Positions 1 to 8,187 of a DNA stretch of 8,187 nt are shown in pieces. The first letter of the stretch is position 1, and each line of letters opens with the position of its first letter. The notes below the pieces were generated by a model. That model had not been told where the DNA came from. It saw only the letters and a list, made by a program, of their open reading frames with translations, and made no database searches. This DNA comes from Candidatus Baldrarchaeota archaeon. Lineage in GTDB: Archaea > Asgardarchaeota > Baldrarchaeia > Baldrarchaeales > DXJG01. The DNA is taken from assembly GCA_030587435.1 (NCBI GenBank), contig JAUQZC010000101.1, positions 1-8,187 of the forward strand. Direction: 5' to 3'. The position numbers were made by a program, and so were the translations under genes.

Positions 1-92
1 AAACTAGCTTCACGTAATGCAAGATAAACCTTAAATGTCAAACATGTAGATACAACACAGATATAACAGCCAGCCAAAAACCATCCAACTCA

Positions 93-100
93 CTTACATA
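93..100 (+). promoter_or_regulatory. Possible TATA box (box A) for tRNA-Pro
   Basis: The octamer CTTACATA lies 26-33 bases before the first base of the tRNA. This is the spacing expected for an archaeal TATA box when transcription starts at or just before the mature 5' end. The match to the YTTAWATA-like consensus is imperfect and no clear purine-rich BRE precedes it, so this is a positional guess. Confidence 0.3.
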
Positions 101-140
101 GATTTTCAAAACTAAAGCAAAGATTGGGGCCGTAGTCTAG

Positions 141-165
141 AGGAAAGCAAAAGCTTTCCGGAGAA
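141..165 (+). other. tRNA-Pro intron 1, in the D-loop (25 nt, non-canonical position)
   Basis: The D region between U8-A9 and the anticodon stem has 43 bases, about 25 too many. Within it GGAAAGC (142-148) pairs with GCTTTCC (153-159) around an AAAA loop. Three-base bulges AGA (139-141) and AAC (164-166) flank a weak central helix of 135-138 with 160-163, which has U-A, C-G and U-G pairs and a G-G mismatch. Cutting after the second base of each bulge, as the archaeal splicing endonuclease does, removes 141-165 and restores D-loop AGCTTGGTA. No outer helix can be drawn, so this is a relaxed motif. The ends could be off by one or two bases. Confidence 0.72.
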
Positions 166-188
166 CTTGGTAGGATGCCAGCCTGGGG

Positions 189-215
189 ACCTGCAAAACT
201 AAAAGCAGGCCAGTC
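189..215 (+). other. tRNA-Pro intron 2, canonical 37/38 position (27 nt)
   Basis: A complete bulge-helix-bulge is visible. The anticodon stem is the outer helix. The central four pairs are CTGG (183-186) with CCAG (210-213). The inner helix is CCTGC (190-194) with GCAGG (205-209) around a ten-base A-rich loop. The bulges are GGA (187-189) and TCC (214-216). Cleavage between the second and third base of each bulge removes 189-215 and leaves anticodon loop CUGGGGC. This is the standard substrate of the archaeal tRNA splicing endonuclease. Confidence 0.92.
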
Positions 216-436
216 CGCTGGTGGTCCCGGGTTCAAATCCCGGCGGCCCCACCAAATTAAGTTAAAGAATATGAAAAGTGAGTTTTCTTCGATGTAATCT
301 GTTTACCTGTTTTGAAAAATTGTGTTTGAGATTTTTGTACCAAAGTAGCAAGAAATTTGTATTAGCATCTGACTTAGAAATTAATTGCATGTAATCATAG
401 TTTTTACTGCGTCATTAATGGCTTATTGAAATTTTG

Positions 437-1813
437 TTATTTTGCTGTTTGTAGGTAGTTTCTTACTTGTTTTATTATGTTTTCTATTTGGGTTTTTGCT
501 GTTCCAGTGTAGTTGTATGGATTTAATGCTTGTTTTATTTCCTCTTCTGTTAGGTAGTTCTGAACAGTTTTGTCGGTTTTTAGAGCATCAAAAAAGTCTA
601 TGTTGTTTTTGTATGCTTTCATTGCGCATCTTCTAATTATTTCATGTGCCTCTTGGCGTCCTATTCCCTTTTTGACTAGTGTTAACATAACTGCTTCAGC
701 CATTATTAGTCCTTTTGTTAAATTAAGGTTTCTTTTCATGTTTTCTGGGTAAATTCTTAATCCTTTGAGTACTTTTTTCATAGTTTTTAACTGTTCATCT
801 AGGAGGATACATGCCTCCGGTACCATTGTTCTTTCGCACGAACTGTTTGTGAGATCTCTCTCATGTTCTATCACTACGTTTTCTAATGCAGCAACAGCTA
901 GGCTTCTTAGTATTTTTGCCAGTCCGCATATTTTTTCGGAGCTTATTGGGTTTCTTTTTTGAGGCATTGTGCTTGATCCTACTTGCACTTCTTCTTTAAA
1001 TGGTTCTTCCAGTTCATGAATTTCTGTTCTTTGAAGATTTCGTATTTCTCTTCCAAATTTATCTAGTGAGCTTGATATTAGTGCTAGTAGGCATATGAAT
1101 TCTGCTAGTCTGTCCCTTGGTACTATTTGTGAAGATATTTCTGCAGGTTTTATGCCTAGGTATTTCATGGTGAGTTCTTGTACTTTTAGCGCATTTGGTC
1201 CGAATCCGGCTTGCGTTCCTACTGCTCCGCTCATTTTTCCAACGCATACTCTTTCTTTACATTGTCTTAGTCTCTCTATGTGTAGTTTGATTTCGTTTGC
1301 CCAGATGGCAAATTTGTGGCCTAATATGTAGGGTATTGCATGCTGTCCGTGCGTTCGTCCTACACAGATTGTTTCTTTATTTTTTTCTGCTAGACCTATT
1401 AGTAGGAGTGCTATTTCGATAAGGTCTTTTTCAATTATGTTGATGGCTTCTTTGATTTGCAGAGCTAGCACTGTGTCTAGGATATCTGAACTTGTTGCTC
1501 CTAGGTGTATGTATTTTCCATAGGGGCCACATACTTCTGTAAGGGCTTTTACGACAGCCATTGTTTCATGTTTAATTTCTTTTTCTATTTCGTTTACCCT
1601 TTCAAGTTTTACGTGCTCTATTGTCGCCATTTTTGATATATGTTCAGCTGCTTTCCTTGGGATGTTTCCAACTTCTGCATGAGCTTTTGCTAGTGCTGCT
1701 TCTACTTCTAGCATTTTTTGTAGCCAGTTTTCTCTGTCAAAGATTTTTCTTATTTCGTAACTGCCGTATCGATAATCGATTGGATGAATTAAGAAGAACC
1801 TTTCATCTTCCAT
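437..1813 (-). CDS. purB: Adenylosuccinate lyase
   Basis: This cytosolic enzyme works twice in purine synthesis. It splits SAICAR into AICAR and fumarate, and adenylosuccinate into AMP and fumarate. The protein has 458 residues, a normal length for the fumarase/aspartase superfamily. The archaeal-type N-terminus HPIDYRYGS is at 10-18. KHETMA (81-86) carries the conserved His82, TSSD is at 107-110, and GRTHGQHA (152-159) holds His155, the expected general acid. The superfamily signature GSSTMPQKRNP (279-289) contains the mobile-loop serine that acts as base in studied homologues. All expected catalytic residues are present. The ATG at 1811-1813 is preceded by AGGTG at 1820-1824, which supports the start. 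The stop is TAA (437-439). It lies 65 bases downstream of hel308 on the same strand and may share its transcript, although it has no functional link to it. Argininosuccinate lyase and fumarase are excluded by the PurB-type N-terminus and THGQ block. Confidence 0.97.
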   Translation of the reverse strand: MEDERFFLIHPIDYRYGSYEIRKIFDRENWLQKMLEVEAALAKAHAEVGNIPRKAAEHISKMATIEHVKLERVNEIEKEIKHETMAVVKALTEVCGPYGKYIHLGATSSDILDTVLALQIKEAINIIEKDLIEIALLLIGLAEKNKETICVGRTHGQHAIPYILGHKFAIWANEIKLHIERLRQCKERVCVGKMSGAVGTQAGFGPNALKVQELTMKYLGIKPAEISSQIVPRDRLAEFICLLALISSSLDKFGREIRNLQRTEIHELEEPFKEEVQVGSSTMPQKRNPISSEKICGLAKILRSLAVAALENVVIEHERDLTNSSCERTMVPEACILLDEQLKTMKKVLKGLRIYPENMKRNLNLTKGLIMAEAVMLTLVKKGIGRQEAHEIIRRCAMKAYKNNIDFFDALKTDKTVQNYLTEEEIKQALNPYNYTGTAKTQIENIIKQVRNYLQTAK

Positions 1814-1819
1814 TTTTTA

Positions 1820-1824
1820 CACCT
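1820..1824 (-). promoter_or_regulatory. Shine-Dalgarno site of purB
   Basis: On the - strand AGGTG is followed by TAAAAA and then ATG. It matches the complement of the archaeal 16S 3' tail (CACCU) with a normal gap of six bases. This fixes the purB start at 1813. Confidence 0.75.
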
Positions 1825-1878
1825 ATTTAAGTTAAAGACTTGTTTTGTAAGACTTAATAGATCAGGTTTTAGGAGATA

Positions 1879-4800
1879 TTAGCTATAGTCTGTTAGTCTT
1901 TTTTGTTTTTTCTCTTCTTTCTTCAATAGAACTACATCGTTTTCAGAAATCTCTCCGCCAATTTGTTTCTTAATGTTTTTCACGATTTCTGGTCCAATTA
2001 ATGGTAGGGATAATAGTTCCCTTACTGTTGCTTTTTGTAGGTCAAATATGGTCTTGAAACCGTATTTGTAAAGTATCCTTGCTCTGACTCTTCCAATTCC
2101 TTTCAAACGAACCAGTTCTAATAGTTCTTCTCTTACACCGTGTTTTACTCTTTGTCTTACCTTCCATATTTCCGAAATTAGATAGTCTCTTTTAATTATT
2201 TTTGCTATTTCTTCGGCAGCATAGAGAAGCCAGTCCGCTGTTTCAACTATTCTTAGGAGATCCCCCGATCCTATTCCGTAGTTTTCAAGTATCTCATCTT
2301 CTGTCTTTTCATCTATCCAATCTTGTAAAAGTTGAGCTACCTTAACCTCTGAAAGAAACCATTCATACTCGGTGGGTTGTGCTAGGTAGTCCGGTACTTC
2401 AACTAAAAATTCATCGTAGTGCATATCTACAATTTCCATGAATTTTTGGTAATCTTTGCGGCGAAGATACAATTTTACCATATCAGGGGTATGGGAAATT
2501 AAGTGGAGGAAAGATAGTGTGGTGGTTTTTTCTTTTTCAGCATTTAGTAGACCATCACGTATAATTACGGCTGTGAGGGGGTCAATGTAGAGTTCAGATG
2601 CTCTTTTACCTAAAGGTGTTGGTAAGAATACTTGTTCTCTCTCTACTAGGAGTTCTTCGGTAATTAAAAAGTTTAAAATTCTTCTTATAACGGATTTTAT
2701 GTTTTCAGGATCATATTGGTAAGCATAAAAAGTTTCGTTTATGAATTTTAAAAGGGATCTTTCGCTGTTTGCGTAACCCGCAGCGACAGTTGAGAGCACG
2801 TGTGTTCTGAGTACTTGTTCATTTGCAAGCTTTGACCAGATTTTTTCGGGTTCACCGAATATGTAAGTTTCGAATAGTTGTTTCTTTTCTTCTTCGCTTT
2901 TAGCTATTAGTATGGCTTCCCCATATTTATCATATTTTGGTCTTCCTGCTCTTCCTGCTTGTTGTTTATATTCTAGTATTGGAATAGGGTAACGTCCTAG
3001 GTCTGATTCGTAGCGATAATAATCTCTTATTATGACGCGTCTGGCTGGAAGGTTTACTCCAGCCGCTAGGGTGGGTGTTGCACATATTATTTTGATAATA
3101 TTTTGCCTGAAAGTGTTCTCAATTACTTTTCTATGTTCATAGTGTAGTCCAGCATGGTGAAAGGCGACTCCTCGTTTAACTAGCTCGGCAAGTTTCTCGC
3201 TCTGTTGTGTTCTAGTTCCTCTCCTCAATATTTCATCAGCTACTTCCGCGAGTGCTCTTTGCTGTATTTTTGACAGAAGCTTTGGTAGGATTTTTGCTAT
3301 TTTTGTTGCCATGCTTACAGCTGCCCTACGAGTGCTGAGGAAAACAAGGGATTGTCCTCCTTCGTATACCGTGTCTATGGCCAATGATACCACAGGGTTA
3401 CTGTCAAATATTTTGGGTCTTTTTATAGTACCATCATTAAACTCTATTACCTCCCCGTCAAATATTCCCTCTTTTAGAATCACTGGCCGCCAGTTACTTA
3501 GCACTAATTTGGCATTTAGCCAGTCAGCAATTTCTTCTGCATTTTTTATTGTTGCGCTCAAAGCTAAGAATTGCGCATTCGGATTTACCTGTTTTAGTCT
3601 AGATAAAACTACTTCCAAGGTTGGTCCTCTATGAGGATCATTAATTAAATGAATTTCATCCGCAACTATTACAGTAAGCTTGTTAATCCATGGAGAGTGA
3701 TGACGTAGAAGTGAATCAGTTTTTTCATTTGTATTGTGGCATATGACCCCACCGATACCCGCAATGAAGTTCTCACACCCGGGAACGGATAAGTCATATA
3801 CGTAGTTTGATGATGGAGGTACTCGAATGATTTTCTTAACTTTTGCAAAAGCAAAGTCCGAGTTCAAGATTCTTTTTATTTTTTCAAGTTCTTTAAGTAA
3901 TGTTAGTCCTGTTTCGGAGATATCATAGAGATAAAATTTGTTTTTGTCTTTTCTTCTTATTAGTCCCTTTTTTAATAGAATTTTTAGATGAGAATTAACT
4001 TTTGACTCGTCAATCCTTAAGAACGAGGATATCTCTCTGATATCGAGTTCTCTACGATTTGCTAGTAAATTAAGAATTCTGATTTTTGTAGAATTTTCCT
4101 CAGAATCTATTAATTTGATGACATCTTCTCTACTAATTCTCTCTGTGGGGTAATTGGGCTTTTTATTGCTTAAATGTCTCAATACGGGTTTTATTTGGTC
4201 TATGGGTAACATGCAAACAGTGTCCGTTTCTTGTATTTGCGGAGAATCTGAATAATTTGATTTTACCTTATGATTAGTAATTTTGAAAGGAGACTTTTTA
4301 GGAATGAGTACATAGTCTCCTATTTGGATTTCAGATGTCTTTTTTGCTTTTATATTTAAATTTTCAAGAACATACACACTGTGACTACCAGTTACAGTTA
4401 CTTCTCTTCCAGTTTCAAGCTGCAGTTTATAGAGTGGCTCTGTTATTTTATGTCGAACTATTTTACTGATTTTTCTAAAACTTATACGATAATTCTCAGG
4501 ATCAAATGCTAGGGTTTCATAATTAAGATCTGATATGTCCAAAATTTCATATACACTTGAATAGATTACTTTATTTGATTTTTCTATTAATTTATCTACG
4601 AATTCTCCTATTTTAACGATTTTGACCGTTTTGTTTTCTTTAATTACTACGGGTTCATTATAATCTACGGAGCAAACAATAATGTCGTAGTTTTCGAGCC
4701 ATTTATCTGATGAATCGTAATCGCCTGTGGATACTGCTACTTTTACCCCTATTTGTTCATATTTTTTGAATTCTTCGTATTTTTCATTGGCTAGAGCTCT

Positions 4801-4968
4801 TAATGGTACTAAATATAGGGCTTTGCCACCTTCATTTAAGATTGATTTTAACATTGCCAGCTCTGCTACAAGAGTTTTTCCAGAGGCTGTTGGTATGGCT
4901 AAAACTAAATTCTCATGATTAAGAGCTCCTTTTTTGATGGCTTCTTCTTGTGGAGGATATAAATTCAC
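1879..4968 (-). CDS. hel308: Hel308 (Hjm) superfamily 2 DNA helicase, intein-interrupted
   Basis: This ATP-dependent 3'-5' helicase is known to act on stalled and branched replication forks. Numbered from the GTG at 4968, the protein has 1029 residues; removing the intein (100-412) leaves 716. The helicase motifs are in order: Q motif LYPPQ (3-7), motif I PTASGKT (26-32, Lys31), GDYD (82-85), motif II DEIH (437-440), motif III SAT (471-473), motif IV VFLSTRRAA (542-550), motif V ATPTLAAGVNLP (630-641) and motif VI QQAGRAGRP (669-677). By comparison with known Hel308 structures, a winged helix follows at about 703-800, then the ratchet helical bundle (800-945) and a helix-hairpin-helix region with KGIG (956-959) and LIGPEIV (990-996). 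The C-terminal tail QKRLTDYS (1022-1029) resembles a PCNA-binding box. GTG is the first recognised start codon, but 21 in-frame codons upstream (4969-5031) also look like Hel308, so the true start is probably AUU at 5031. mcm ends about 20 bases upstream, which suggests one transcript. Confidence 0.95.
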   Translation of the reverse strand: MNLYPPQEEAIKKGALNHENLVLAIPTASGKTLVAELAMLKSILNEGGKALYLVPLRALANEKYEEFKKYEQIGVKVAVSTGDYDSSDKWLENYDIIVCSVDYNEPVVIKENKTVKIVKIGEFVDKLIEKSNKVIYSSVYEILDISDLNYETLAFDPENYRISFRKISKIVRHKITEPLYKLQLETGREVTVTGSHSVYVLENLNIKAKKTSEIQIGDYVLIPKKSPFKITNHKVKSNYSDSPQIQETDTVCMLPIDQIKPVLRHLSNKKPNYPTERISREDVIKLIDSEENSTKIRILNLLANRRELDIREISSFLRIDESKVNSHLKILLKKGLIRRKDKNKFYLYDISETGLTLLKELEKIKRILNSDFAFAKVKKIIRVPPSSNYVYDLSVPGCENFIAGIGGVICHNTNEKTDSLLRHHSPWINKLTVIVADEIHLINDPHRGPTLEVVLSRLKQVNPNAQFLALSATIKNAEEIADWLNAKLVLSNWRPVILKEGIFDGEVIEFNDGTIKRPKIFDSNPVVSLAIDTVYEGGQSLVFLSTRRAAVSMATKIAKILPKLLSKIQQRALAEVADEILRRGTRTQQSEKLAELVKRGVAFHHAGLHYEHRKVIENTFRQNIIKIICATPTLAAGVNLPARRVIIRDYYRYESDLGRYPIPILEYKQQAGRAGRPKYDKYGEAILIAKSEEEKKQLFETYIFGEPEKIWSKLANEQVLRTHVLSTVAAGYANSERSLLKFINETFYAYQYDPENIKSVIRRILNFLITEELLVEREQVFLPTPLGKRASELYIDPLTAVIIRDGLLNAEKEKTTTLSFLHLISHTPDMVKLYLRRKDYQKFMEIVDMHYDEFLVEVPDYLAQPTEYEWFLSEVKVAQLLQDWIDEKTEDEILENYGIGSGDLLRIVETADWLLYAAEEIAKIIKRDYLISEIWKVRQRVKHGVREELLELVRLKGIGRVRARILYKYGFKTIFDLQKATVRELLSLPLIGPEIVKNIKKQIGGEISENDVVLLKKEEKKQKRLTDYS
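3733..4671 (-). other. Intein in Hel308 (313 aa), no LAGLIDADG endonuclease
   Basis: The insert runs from Ser100 to Asn412 of Hel308. Removing it joins DIIVC to TNEKTDSLLRH, the uninterrupted Hel308 sequence just before motif II. Splicing block A starts at SVDYNEPVV. Block B is TVTGSHSVYV (191-200), with the TxxH motif at Thr193 to His196. Block F is YVYDLSVPGCENFIAG (389-404). Block G ends in ICHN (409-412), followed by Thr as the +1 nucleophile. All residues expected for self-splicing are present. The stretch that normally holds the endonuclease (about 225-385) has no LAGLIDADG motif and contains a winged helix-turn-helix instead. The splicing half resembles that of the complete MCM intein nearby, for example VKIGEFVDKLIE here against VKIGDFVDDLFE there. 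The boundaries are firm; whether the element is still mobile is unknown. Confidence 0.93.
3913..4089 (-). other. ArsR-like winged helix-turn-helix domain inside the Hel308 intein
   Basis: Residues 294-352 of Hel308 read as a small DNA-binding fold. A first helix is KIRILNLLANR (295-305), a second LDIREISSFL (308-317), and a recognition helix ESKVNSHLKILLKKGLI (321-337). A two-strand wing, RRKDKNKFYLYDIS (338-351), ends the fold. The pattern KIxILxLL ... xxSxVNxHLKxLxxxGLI ... xKxKFYLY is that of archaeal ArsR/MarR-type regulators. It sits between intein blocks B and F. The fold is assigned by pattern only; what DNA, if any, it binds cannot be told. Confidence 0.78.
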
Positions 4969-5031
4969 TATTCCCTGTGAGATGAGTAGTTCTTTTACTT
5001 TTTGTGGTATGTCTAGTTCTTCTATTTTAAT
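4969..5031 (-). other. Probable true N-terminus of Hel308, starting at AUU
   Basis: The hel308 frame is open upstream of the GTG to a TAA at 5035-5037. The 21 codons after ATT (5029-5031) encode IKIEELDIPQKVKELL followed by ISQGI, leading directly into (V)NLYPPQ. Hel308 proteins normally begin with an M-K-h-E-E-L-x-I-P type segment and a short helix before the Q motif, so this looks like genuine coding sequence. It contains no ATG, GTG or TTG codon. The best start is ATT, with GGGGG nine bases upstream. Adding it gives 1050 residues, or 737 after splicing. Confidence 0.7.
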
Positions 5032-5040
5032 TCTTTATTT

Positions 5041-5045
5041 CCCCC
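5041..5045 (-). promoter_or_regulatory. Candidate Shine-Dalgarno for the AUU start of hel308
   Basis: On the - strand GGGGG is followed by AAATAAAGA and then ATT. GGGGG can pair with the anti-Shine-Dalgarno CCUCC using one G-U wobble. The distance to ATT is nine bases; the equivalent distance in purB is eight. The site falls in the short gap after the mcm stop (5051-5053) and is one reason to prefer ATT at 5031 over the internal GTG at 4968. Confidence 0.45.
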
Positions 5046-5050
5046 GTTTG

Positions 5051-8000
5051 CTAAGCTTTCTTGACATGGCCTGGTCTTGGCTCGAAAATTATACCTTCTT
5101 TTTTCATTCGTTCTATAGCTCTTTTAACAAATTCTTCATCAATACCTTCTATGCTTGCTCTTTCAATAAGCTTTGATACTGGAACTGCCTTATCTACGTC
5201 TTCACCCAGTTCATCTATTAAATCTAATATTTTTTCCATTTTGTCTCTTTGCGATTTACTGTGCCCTGTCATTATTAGGTCTATGTCAAGTTGCCCCGTT
5301 TCGCTATCTATTCCTACTTGTTGTAAGGAGAGTTTCATAAGGCGTATTGCTTCCTCAGCGTCTTCAACGGTTACTTTATCTCTGAGAGCCATCCTTGCAT
5401 GAGCTTCAGCTAATCTAATTAAGGCTTCTAATTGCCTCGCCGTTATAGGCACAGGGGATGCTGGAGCTTCACCTATACTCCTAAGCTCTAAATAGAACTG
5501 TTCAATTCTTTTCGCTGCCTCAGGAGTTAACACCGGATGAACATTTTTCCTAGCATATGCAATGTATTTTCTAAGAAGGTCAGGAGGTATAGGTGGCTCA
5601 ACGGTTCTCATTTGATGCAAAGCAAGAATATGCTCAGCTACCTGTTTATCCACCTCTACCCTAGGCCTATCTGTCAAAATAAAAATCAAATCAAAACGAG
5701 ACAAAATAGTCGGTGGAAGATTAATGTTATCCGCCGGAGGCCTATAATGATCATACCTACCAAGCTTAGGATTAGCAGCAGCCAAAATAGCCGTACGAGC
5801 ATTAAGAGTAGCAACAATACCAGCCTTAGCAATACTAATTGTATTGTGAAGCACAAGTCCATGACTTATGAAATTCCTTGTTGGCTCCACTGTAACATCA
5901 TAAACCCATTCTGTTCCTAATTCTCCACAGTTGTTCATTACTTCTACGCTTTTTACTCTTAGCCATCTAAATTTCTTTAACCTTTTGATCTTATTGACTA
6001 TTTCTTTTGCTTCTTCAATTTCCCTTAATACAGTCGTTTTAAACTTGCACAGTAAATTATTTCTTTTCTCTGGGTCATAACCGCCTCTTTCCATGTAGTC
6101 AACTGTACTTCTTGTTACATTAATCAGTTTCGCGACTTTAGCTTGAGAATAACCAATTATCTGCCTTAATTTACGCAGATCATTTATATCTCTGATGATT
6201 TTTTCAATCTCTTTGATTCTACTTTCGATGATGTCCAAATACCTATTCACAACTTCTCTTGTTATCCCGTAATTTCTGTTTATATGTTCGTTAAAGTAAC
6301 CGTTATAAGGCATACCAAGCTTTTTTAGACATTTTATTATCATCGTTCCAACGTACGGTGGTAGGACATCGTGCTTTCTATTAGTTTTTTCACTTCTCTC
6401 AACAAGTTTTTTCAGTTTTTCGTGTGATTTGAGTTCAGGAATGATTATGTCTACAAATTTTTTCAAGCTATCCCCGGTTATGTAAACTTTGTAACGACAT
6501 CGTTTTAATGTCCCTTTTGATGCATCATAAGTATCTTTACATATTCGAGAATGTATTCCGAGAGTTAAAAGTAAGTCCTGATAGTCCTCGGCAAGACCTT
6601 TTGAGGAGGTTGAATACGCAATTGCTTCGCTTTCAATGGATCCATCACCTTCGAATGCTGTCTTTAAAAATTCTATTCTCTCCCTTGTACCCGCTACAAA
6701 TATTTTTTGTGGAATTCGTTTATCAGTACTTCTTTTCATTAATTCTGGAAAGTTTTTAGACATATAGTTGTAAAGAGACTTAGATACGATACGTAGTGTT
6801 CTATTAACATTAACATAGTCAATTGGACTTATTCCGAAAACTTCTTCCACAACAGATTTCATGCTTGAAATTATATCTTGATTTGTATTACTCAGTCCAA
6901 CTTCTGCAGCGGTTCCATTATAGGAATAACCTTCAGCCACATAATAGCCCAAAAACCTAGCAATTGGACCCTGCATTGTCTCTGGGAGTATAACCTTTTT
7001 TCTTCCGTTAGCTATATCGGTATCCAGCCTGTAACTCCCTTTAAACTCGATTTCTTCAACCGCTGGAACAAAAACCCCGGTTTTTACTTTATCCGCACTT
7101 ATAGTTTTAATTTCTCCATTTTCAAAAACAAATATAGGATGTTCTGGAGTCACAAGTACTTCTCTACCATTTGAATATAGTATTTTTATAAATCGACTCG
7201 GTGCTTTATGTCTGCTAACCCTGTTGATTTTCGTTTTAAATATTTTATCAAAGTCTGTAGTGAGAATTTCGATATTTAGATCCGATACTGGAAGAATTTC
7301 ACAATCTATTCCATCTATTTTCCTATCTGGAAATTGTTCGAAAAGATCATCGACAAAATCTCCGATTTTAACCTTAGTTCCATCTGCCAAAGTAATTTCA
7401 AAGAAAGGATGATAAGACTGCTGTTCCATCGCTTCATGGATAGCTACCCTGTCCTGTGGGTTCATTTTGTCAAATTCGTCAATGCAATTATGCACTATAA
7501 TTCCGTCACATACGAAGTTGTGGTACTTTGGGACATAGAGGTCGTAAACGTATCCTGAGTATTTTTCTGCTTTTATTTTAACTATCTTGTCCAGGAAGTA
7601 GTCTCGAGACACTAGTAACTCTATTTGATGCAGTAATTCTTTATCCAGGAGATCGGAAATTCTATCTTTAATTTTTAGAAGCTGTTGTCTGGAGGGTTGA
7701 TATTTTTTATTTTTGTAGGCGTAGAGGGTGCTCCATATGCCTCTTTCAAGTAGAACAGATTTATTTACAGAGGATATTATCTGATCGCTTATTTTTGCAA
7801 CCGGAACATTTGGAAGCTTGTCACTGAAAGAGGAAACCATGTGTTTCTTAGCGGGAATAGATTTAATTTTAACGCTATAATTTTTAATAACATTCAAAAG
7901 TCGGATGGCATCTTCCCTTCCCGTTATTATAATCTTGTTTATTTTCTTGTCCTTTACGAGTTTTGCAAAACAGTCAAATCGTCTTAAAGCAAGCAGGAAT

Positions 8001-8187
8001 GCTTCGTTCTCTTCCTCGTTGTTCGATAATTGGAACTCTATATGTACAGTTTCATAGATTTTATTTGATTTCCTTCCTCTTTTAATTGAAATACAGCCAT
8101 CAGAATCTAAACAACCCGCAATAAACGCTTTTAAAGCTTCGTCAGGCAATTTTAAAAGATTTTTTAGCCCTTCTCCCACTATATAAC
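5051..8187 (-). CDS. mcm: MCM replicative DNA helicase, C-terminal part, two inteins
   Basis: MCM forms the hexameric AAA+ helicase that unwinds DNA at the archaeal replication fork. The gene runs off the right edge. The N-terminal domain, the Walker A region and the start of the first intein are outside. Numbering is from the GTG at 8179, which is an intein codon and not a real start. Visible extein segments are 232-254, with Walker B CIDEFDKM (232-239), and 780-1042. The second segment has sensor 1 AAAN (800-803), the arginine finger in LSRFD (Arg828), sensor 2 ITARQLEALIRLAEAHAR (Arg915), and a C-terminal winged helix (about 971-1042). Inteins occupy everything up to 231 and residues 255-779. 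Spliced together, the exteins read through the normal MCM sequence, with EAMEQQ joined to TISIAKAGIV. The stop is TAG (5051-5053). hel308 begins about 20 bases downstream. Codon usage changes abruptly within the last extein. Confidence 0.96.
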   Translation of the reverse strand, partial: YIVGEGLKNLLKLPDEALKAFIAGCLDSDGCISIKRGRKSNKIYETVHIEFQLSNNEEENEAFLLALRRFDCFAKLVKDKKINKIIITGREDAIRLLNVIKNYSVKIKSIPAKKHMVSSFSDKLPNVPVAKISDQIISSVNKSVLLERGIWSTLYAYKNKKYQPSRQQLLKIKDRISDLLDKELLHQIELLVSRDYFLDKIVKIKAEKYSGYVYDLYVPKYHNFVCDGIIVHNCIDEFDKMNPQDRVAIHEAMEQQSYHPFFEITLADGTKVKIGDFVDDLFEQFPDRKIDGIDCEILPVSDLNIEILTTDFDKIFKTKINRVSRHKAPSRFIKILYSNGREVLVTPEHPIFVFENGEIKTISADKVKTGVFVPAVEEIEFKGSYRLDTDIANGRKKVILPETMQGPIARFLGYYVAEGYSYNGTAAEVGLSNTNQDIISSMKSVVEEVFGISPIDYVNVNRTLRIVSKSLYNYMSKNFPELMKRSTDKRIPQKIFVAGTRERIEFLKTAFEGDGSIESEAIAYSTSSKGLAEDYQDLLLTLGIHSRICKDTYDASKGTLKRCRYKVYITGDSLKKFVDIIIPELKSHEKLKKLVERSEKTNRKHDVLPPYVGTMIIKCLKKLGMPYNGYFNEHINRNYGITREVVNRYLDIIESRIKEIEKIIRDINDLRKLRQIIGYSQAKVAKLINVTRSTVDYMERGGYDPEKRNNLLCKFKTTVLREIEEAKEIVNKIKRLKKFRWLRVKSVEVMNNCGELGTEWVYDVTVEPTRNFISHGLVLHNTISIAKAGIVATLNARTAILAAANPKLGRYDHYRPPADNINLPPTILSRFDLIFILTDRPRVEVDKQVAEHILALHQMRTVEPPIPPDLLRKYIAYARKNVHPVLTPEAAKRIEQFYLELRSIGEAPASPVPITARQLEALIRLAEAHARMALRDKVTVEDAEEAIRLMKLSLQQVGIDSETGQLDIDLIMTGHSKSQRDKMEKILDLIDELGEDVDKAVPVSKLIERASIEGIDEEFVKRAIERMKKEGIIFEPRPGHVKKA
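5843..7417 (-). mobile_element. Complete MCM intein (525 aa) with LAGLIDADG endonuclease and XRE-type HTH
   Basis: This is a self-splicing intein from Ser255 to Asn779 of the visible MCM protein, inserted between EAMEQQ and TISIAKAG just after Walker B. Block A begins SYHPFFEITLADG. Block B is VLVTPEHPIFVF (341-352), with Thr344 and His347. Block F is EWVYDVTVEPTRNFISHG (757-774), and block G ends VLHN, with Thr780 as +1 residue. The endonuclease lies between. Its first motif is FLGYYVAEG (409-417, acidic Glu416) and its second is FLKTAFEGDG (504-513, acidic Asp512). Both catalytic acids are kept, so DNA cleavage and homing are plausible. A helix-turn-helix follows at 668-699. All splicing residues are present and the frame is open throughout. 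Confidence 0.94.
6083..6178 (-). other. XRE-type helix-turn-helix within the MCM intein
   Basis: Residues 668-699 have the Cro/CI-type pattern L-R-x-I-x-G-Y-S-Q-A-K-V-A-K-L, then INVTRSTVDYMERG. This is the classic turn of phage repressors, with recognition helix TRSTVDYMERG. It sits after the second LAGLIDADG motif and before the C-terminal splicing blocks. A likely role is extra DNA contact for target-site recognition by the homing endonuclease; this role is inferred. Confidence 0.75.
7418..7486 (-). other. 23-residue MCM extein island (Walker B) between two inteins
   Basis: Residues 232-254, from CIDEFDKM to EAMEQQ, are the only MCM sequence between the upstream intein (ending IVHN) and the next one (starting SYHPFF). 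The segment carries the Walker B acidic pair Asp234-Glu235, which coordinates magnesium and activates water for ATP hydrolysis. Both flanking inteins must leave before the ATPase site exists. Confidence 0.95.
7487..8187 (-). mobile_element. MCM intein upstream of Walker B, C-terminal part only
   Basis: The window opens inside this intein, about 234 residues of which are visible. One LAGLIDADG motif, KAFIAGCLDSDG (17-28, acidic Asp27), is followed by the usual substrate-binding strands. I read it as the second motif of the pair, with the first lying beyond the edge, because none follows it. A segment with YQPSRQQLLKI (160-170) resembles the end of an intein HTH module. Splicing block F is GYVYDLYVPKYHNFVCDG (209-226), and block G ends IIVHN at 231, with Cys232 of MCM as +1 nucleophile. 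The C-terminal splicing residues are intact. The first residue and total length cannot be seen. Confidence 0.92.

Follow-up and report, generated by a model that had tools for sequence, protein, structure and literature searches.

A Hel308 intein of Baldrarchaeota without a LAGLIDADG endonuclease probably retains its accessory winged helix-turn-helix

The hel308 gene of a Candidatus Baldrarchaeota archaeon (contig JAUQZC010000101.1, positions 1 to 8,187; these 8,187 nucleotides are called the window here) is interrupted by an intein in which a winged helix-turn-helix (wHTH) occupies the place of the endonuclease. The locus raises the question of where this domain came from and what it does now. 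The original prediction left two origins open: loss of the endonuclease with its DNA-recognition part left behind, or acquisition of a regulator-like domain. Full-length relatives inserted at this site carry LAGLIDADG followed by wHTH and support the former well; the latter was not borne out, since the wHTH is already present together with the endonuclease in these relatives. The features of the locus are as follows, with residues numbered on the Hel308 precursor unless given as intein residues.

1879..4968, minus strand: hel308 with intein, 1029 aa counted from GTG; PRK02362, Pfam DEAD and Helicase_dom4_arc
3733..4671, minus strand: Ser1 intein of 313 aa, Hel308 residues 100-412 (Ser100 to Asn412)
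4282..4671, minus strand: N-terminal splicing (HINT) part with blocks A and B, intein 1-130
4222..4281, minus strand: low-confidence loop, intein 131-150 (block pLDDT 54 and 51)
4102..4221, minus strand: segment after the former endonuclease, intein 151-190, aligning with the post-LAGLIDADG segment of P0006-P0013
4105-4140, minus strand: RISREDVIKLID, residues 277-288, within the intein 151-190 segment
3865..4101, minus strand: wHTH accessory domain, residues 290-368 (Pfam HTH_5, model, HlyU 4k2e)
3970..4008, minus strand: wHTH recognition helix, intein 222-234 (model and alignment)
3919..3960, minus strand: wHTH wing, intein 238-251, from which the Gly-His of eight endonuclease-bearing relatives is gone
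3733..3864, minus strand: C-terminal splicing part with blocks F and G, residues 369-412

The hel308 product was matched by NCBIfam PRK02362 (904.2 bits, cut-off 887) and by the Pfam families DEAD and Helicase_dom4_arc. The intein lies in a conserved motif, between DIIVC and TNEK; the junctions of same-site relatives read DII(I/V)T before the intein (SVDYEEP...HN) and TNEK after it, and the intein-free Hel308 of P. furiosus has DIIIATAEKFDSLLRH, with DIIIATAEK at the insertion place. Cys99 was also considered as intein residue 1 and was ruled out by these junctions and the P. furiosus protein; it therefore belongs to the extein. The intein boundaries predicted originally, 3733..4671, are exact.

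Splicing blocks A, B, F and G are intact, as predicted: Ser1, Thr94-x-x-His97, Asp293, His312 and Asn313 of the intein are invariant in a 22-row alignment, and Pfam Intein_splicing matched the window intein at 87.6 bits (cut-off 35.8). The +1 residue, which in the Hel308 relative P0013 is Ser, is here Thr, so that nucleophile, block B TxxH, block F Asp, final His-Asn and +1 residue all agree with a class 1 intein. Judging from these residues, the window intein should splice via the ordinary Ser1 pathway.

No LAGLIDADG or other endonuclease family was found in the window intein by a Pfam scan at E up to 1, which agrees with the predicted absence of LAGLIDADG between blocks B and F. A degenerate LAGLIDADG fold in residues 225-385, named originally as an observation that would overturn the prediction, was ruled out by the same scan and by the AlphaFold model (mean pLDDT 89; a single-sequence run with mean pLDDT 38.5 was set aside). 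Alignment columns between residues 228 and 245 hold 16 residues in the window intein vs 279-286 in eight endonuclease-bearing relatives, and the loop at intein 131-150 is interpreted as a scar left by the loss of LAGLIDADG. The short segment RISREDVIKLID, said to precede the winged helix, is present, one residue earlier than the predicted 278-289.

The ArsR-like winged helix itself was recovered by both sequence and structure. HTH_5 matched it above the Pfam cut-off (E 2.1e-9, 37.6 bits), as did MarR, HTH_24 and TrmB, and the ArsR-type protein HlyU (4k2e) matched by sequence with E 4.3e-5. The model is confident here (block pLDDT 87-96), with helices at intein 191-205, 211-218 and 222-234, the wing at 238-251 and a further helix at 253-269. 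The domain fell below the cut-off for NCBIfam HTH_metalloreg (37.9 vs 55 bits), and the translation contains no Cys within residues 290-368, which is evidence against a cysteine metal site. Cysteine metal ligands are a feature of ArsR/SmtB metalloregulators, with other ligands in some members.

Scanning genomes recovered this intein in three of them, L001 (Baldrarchaeota, 97%), L002 (Odinarchaeota, 92%) and L003 (Baldrarchaeota, 63%). Baldrarchaeota and Odinarchaeota both fall within Promethearchaeati, the Asgard archaea. Some match was present in 161 of the 227 genomes from the phylum of L002, and among the matches listed only L001, L002 and L003 were full-length. Protein searches yielded four clusters of such mini-inteins, P0002-P0005, which may overlap with the genomes of L001-L003.

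Searching Hel308 inteins for the same insert, a check named in the original prediction, recovered the wHTH together with LAGLIDADG in 12 full-length inteins that share the insertion site (P0006-P0013 and P0081-P0084). These are 569-587 aa long and exceed the window intein by 256-274 residues; P0007 and P0084 carry Bathyarchaeia names, and P0013 is a partial protein. In all eight of P0006-P0013 the same wHTH is contiguous with block F and the LAGLIDADG part stands before it, so that the domain is homologous and lies in the same place, between endonuclease and block F, in eight aligned Hel308 inteins. LAGLIDADG is listed for all eight, and rescanning five of them gave LAGLIDADG_3 and then a wHTH family, both above the Pfam cut-off. 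P0081-P0084 match residues 400-707 of P0008 over 99-100%, with a wHTH family listed. Because these longer inteins hold the same wHTH beside LAGLIDADG, the window intein is regarded as a deletion derivative. HTH-type accessory domains are described in the TliVMA and PI-TkoII inteins, along with an effect on the choice of cut site, and loss of the endonuclease after fixation of an intein is described as well (PMC8966425). The accessory wHTH is thus a kind of domain known already from other archaeal inteins, and presumably it formerly shared in target recognition beside the endonuclease.

A splicing-domain tree of 43 rows was built from 85 delimited inteins (98 proteins, of which 13 were dropped). 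The window intein and P0002-P0005, hereafter the five minis, form one side of a branch with support 96/92, and P0009 and P0013 have no firm placement; since the tree fails to place these two, endonuclease loss rests on parsimony. Endonuclease-bearing inteins are the common kind among the relatives, as 59 of the 79 proteins in the relatives' search list LAGLIDADG_3, a domain that may lie in a different intein of the same protein, as it does in P0004. The simplest account is that the endonuclease was lost and the accessory wHTH was kept.

Relative to the splicing domain, the wHTH has evolved at about double the pace since the endonuclease was lost. The ratio of wHTH to splicing-domain distance is 3.30 among the five minis (10 pairs) vs 1.34 among the eight endonuclease-bearing relatives (28 pairs); in pairs of comparable depth it is 3.4 (2 mini pairs) vs 1.6 (3 endonuclease-bearing pairs), a quotient of 2.1 [1.35-3.55], with 3 of 2000 column bootstraps not exceeding 1. 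Because branches are shared among the mini pairs, this is effectively one deep contrast, and the pair of window and P0002 has zero wHTH differences. Between the window and L003, dN/dS is 0.05 for the extein, 0.09 [0.04-0.15] for the splicing domain, where dS is near saturation, and 0.52 [0.25-1.00] for the wHTH (bootstrap ranges). In closer pairs the wHTH is indistinct from the splicing domain (window-L002 0.39 [0.11-1.63], L001-L002 0.51 [0.18-1.85]), and the window-L001 pair yields no estimate.

Of the columns that never vary among the eight relatives, the splicing domain has 44, of which the window intein keeps 43; the linker has 8 (3 kept) and the wHTH 11 (7 kept). The invariant positions gone are Arg250, Phe274, Gly275, Trp286, Trp321, Gly341, Gly344 and His345, and Ile262 is conservatively replaced by Val. 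Of the lost positions, Trp321 opens the recognition helix and Gly344-His345 lie in the wing; Asn325 of the recognition helix is retained in 13/13 sequences (five minis and eight relatives). From the window to L003, 27 of 31 hydrophobic wHTH sites are still hydrophobic and 17 of 46 other positions are identical; the L003 wing is identical to that of the window at 4 of 14 positions, and its recognition helix gains a Pro. Folded domains commonly keep their core longer than their surface, and this alone is no sign of decay. The wHTH of P0005 lies just under the Pfam cut-offs and that of P0004 above them. The wHTH carries a net charge of +5 to +14 in the minis vs +2 to +12 in the eight relatives, values compatible with nucleic-acid binding. 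Taken as a whole, this is the pattern of a domain that stays folded but is less bound to its old contacts after endonuclease loss; the decay may be incomplete, and constraint is still above zero.

The window intein very probably descends from a full-length LAGLIDADG intein, its wHTH being now a folded relic under relaxed selection. In this course of events, which is drawn from comparison, a full-length LAGLIDADG intein would have invaded archaeal hel308 by homing at its conserved TNEK motif. An in-frame loss of roughly 265 residues would have taken out the LAGLIDADG part and left the accessory wHTH joined directly to block F. Relaxed selection, a statistical finding, would then have kept the core and lost part of the conserved positions. 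The mini form could instead be ancestral, with the endonuclease inserted later in a Bathyarchaeia-like lineage, and the tree does leave the nesting of minis among endonuclease-bearing Hel308 inteins unsettled; the frequency of endonuclease-bearing inteins among the relatives (the LAGLIDADG_3 count above, with its reservation about second inteins) and the relatively faster evolution of the wHTH in minis make this quite improbable. Hardly credible at all is the capture of a transcription-factor wHTH by a bare mini-intein in this lineage: the domain does resemble ArsR/MarR regulators in sequence, but eight aligned full-length inteins that share the insertion site have the same wHTH in the same place, with LAGLIDADG found in the five rescanned and listed for all eight, which contradicts it. 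The wHTH of the window is most likely a fossil of selfish-element decay rather than a newly gained regulator.

As to present function, we lean slightly towards a passive folded spacer at the endonuclease insertion site, which would help to hold the splicing half-domains in place. Such a strut is the likeliest role because the inteins of TFIIB, the closest solved ones by sequence, need an endonuclease or a long linker: TFIIB-type inteins splice only with either of these (PMC6801210). It is unlikely that the retained wHTH still acts through DNA binding as a control on splicing or on hel308 expression, whether the precursor senses DNA of a fork or target or the intein, once excised, binds its own locus. 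The positive charge and confident fold of the domain favour such a role, as does the residual constraint (the wHTH dN/dS of 0.52 goes down to 0.25 in the bootstrap). Splicing of the P. horikoshii RadA intein is promoted by ssDNA, via extein contacts (PMC10663303), and the HTH-like accessory domain of the TliVMA intein influences the position of the DNA cut (PMC8966425). Weighing against DNA control are the faster evolution of the wHTH than in endonuclease-bearing relatives, the loss of the wing Gly-His and recognition-helix Trp, and the diverged wing and Pro-containing recognition helix of L003. With constraint on the wHTH relaxed, a link of splicing to DNA or a ligand becomes less likely, and we accordingly doubt that the domain is a DNA sensor through which fork or hel308 DNA alters the rate of Hel308 splicing, or through which the intein represses its own gene after excision.

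The search was also widened to other inteins. Of the 85 delimited inteins, 12 are shorter than 400 aa (the five Hel308 minis and seven others), and no HTH was found in the delimited part of these seven (Pfam, E up to 0.01). LAGLIDADG_3 was found in the short inteins P0058 and P0059 and just below the cut-off in P0071, and was absent at E up to 0.01 from P0020, P0032, P0044 and the delimited intein of P0090. A query of wHTH plus block F returned nine proteins, namely the four known minis, P0077 (a fragment with the intein end only) and P0014, P0027, P0051 and P0099 (other host proteins); among these nine there was no new endonuclease-free Hel308 intein. P0014, whose host protein is MCM, aligns to the query over 95% at 36%; Hel308 is therefore not the only host protein with the accessory domain. 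Phage records gave one weak match, covering 41%. The 50 matches listed from a viral fold library (Foldseek) had query TM-scores of at most 0.52 and were polymerases, helicases and similar proteins of large viruses and phages; they added nothing.

Several further observations were made on these genes. The neighbouring mcm gene (5051-8185, minus strand) holds two inteins, 23 extein residues apart; the first is truncated at the window edge, and the second (5843-7417, minus strand) has LAGLIDADG followed, ahead of block F, by an XRE-type HTH, so that its layout is comparable except that the endonuclease is present. P0004, a Hel308 of 1565 aa, has the same mini and, in helicase motif III (between LAL and SATIKN), another intein with LAGLIDADG and HTH_3; one Hel308 thus holds two inteins. 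An intein in L022 (G135), a protein that looks UvrB-like by eye, shows on the same kind of inspection a LAGLIDADG-like region and, ahead of block F, an XRE-like HTH stretch, and would be another example of accessory-domain diversity. The hel308 reading frame is open upstream to 5034, and no ATG, GTG or TTG start for the conserved N-terminus is present in 4968-5037 (minus strand). The frame opens with GGGGGAAATAAAGA-ATT-AAA-ATA in the window, L001 and L002, and in L003 with one change. At 4968, where the window has GTG, L003 has ACA. The ATT at 5031 is likely the hel308 start codon, and the comparison suggests that it is conserved across the window, L001, L002 and L003.

No description of an endonuclease-free intein keeping such a domain was found in the open-access literature searched, with PabCDC21-2 as a possible precedent. 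This natural mini-intein has 268 residues (PMC6801210) and, depending on its extra residues, could be such a precedent; the claim that a retained wHTH in an endonuclease-free intein lacks published precedent is therefore weak. The window intein captures a stage of the homing cycle for which these searches gave no published example, the cutting domain gone and its presumed DNA-recognition partner still folded. With its endonuclease-bearing same-site relatives it makes a natural before-and-after pair, which lets one ask if, after the nuclease has gone, an accessory domain serves splicing or DNA binding.

Compared with known systems, the TliVMA intein (7qss) and PI-TkoII/PI-PkoII (2cw7) likewise combine a splicing domain with an HTH-like accessory domain (PMC8966425), but both keep the LAGLIDADG domain that is absent from the window intein. 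The model aligned over 220 residues to 7qss and 230 to 2cw7, vs 160-174 to the archaeal mini-inteins listed; PI-PfuI (1dq3) also aligns over 217 residues, and the extra residues are thus no specific proof. The Mvu TFIIB intein (5o9i, endonuclease removed artificially, 40% identity) and the natural mini-intein PabCDC21-1 (6rpp) have the same splicing fold and are also without endonuclease, but neither has a wHTH. HlyU (4k2e) and ArsR/MarR-type regulators are alike in wHTH sequence, whereas the intein wHTH is not free-standing and has no Cys. The full-length Hel308 inteins P0006-P0013 and P0081-P0084 share host, site and wHTH and differ by LAGLIDADG and a length of 569-587 aa.
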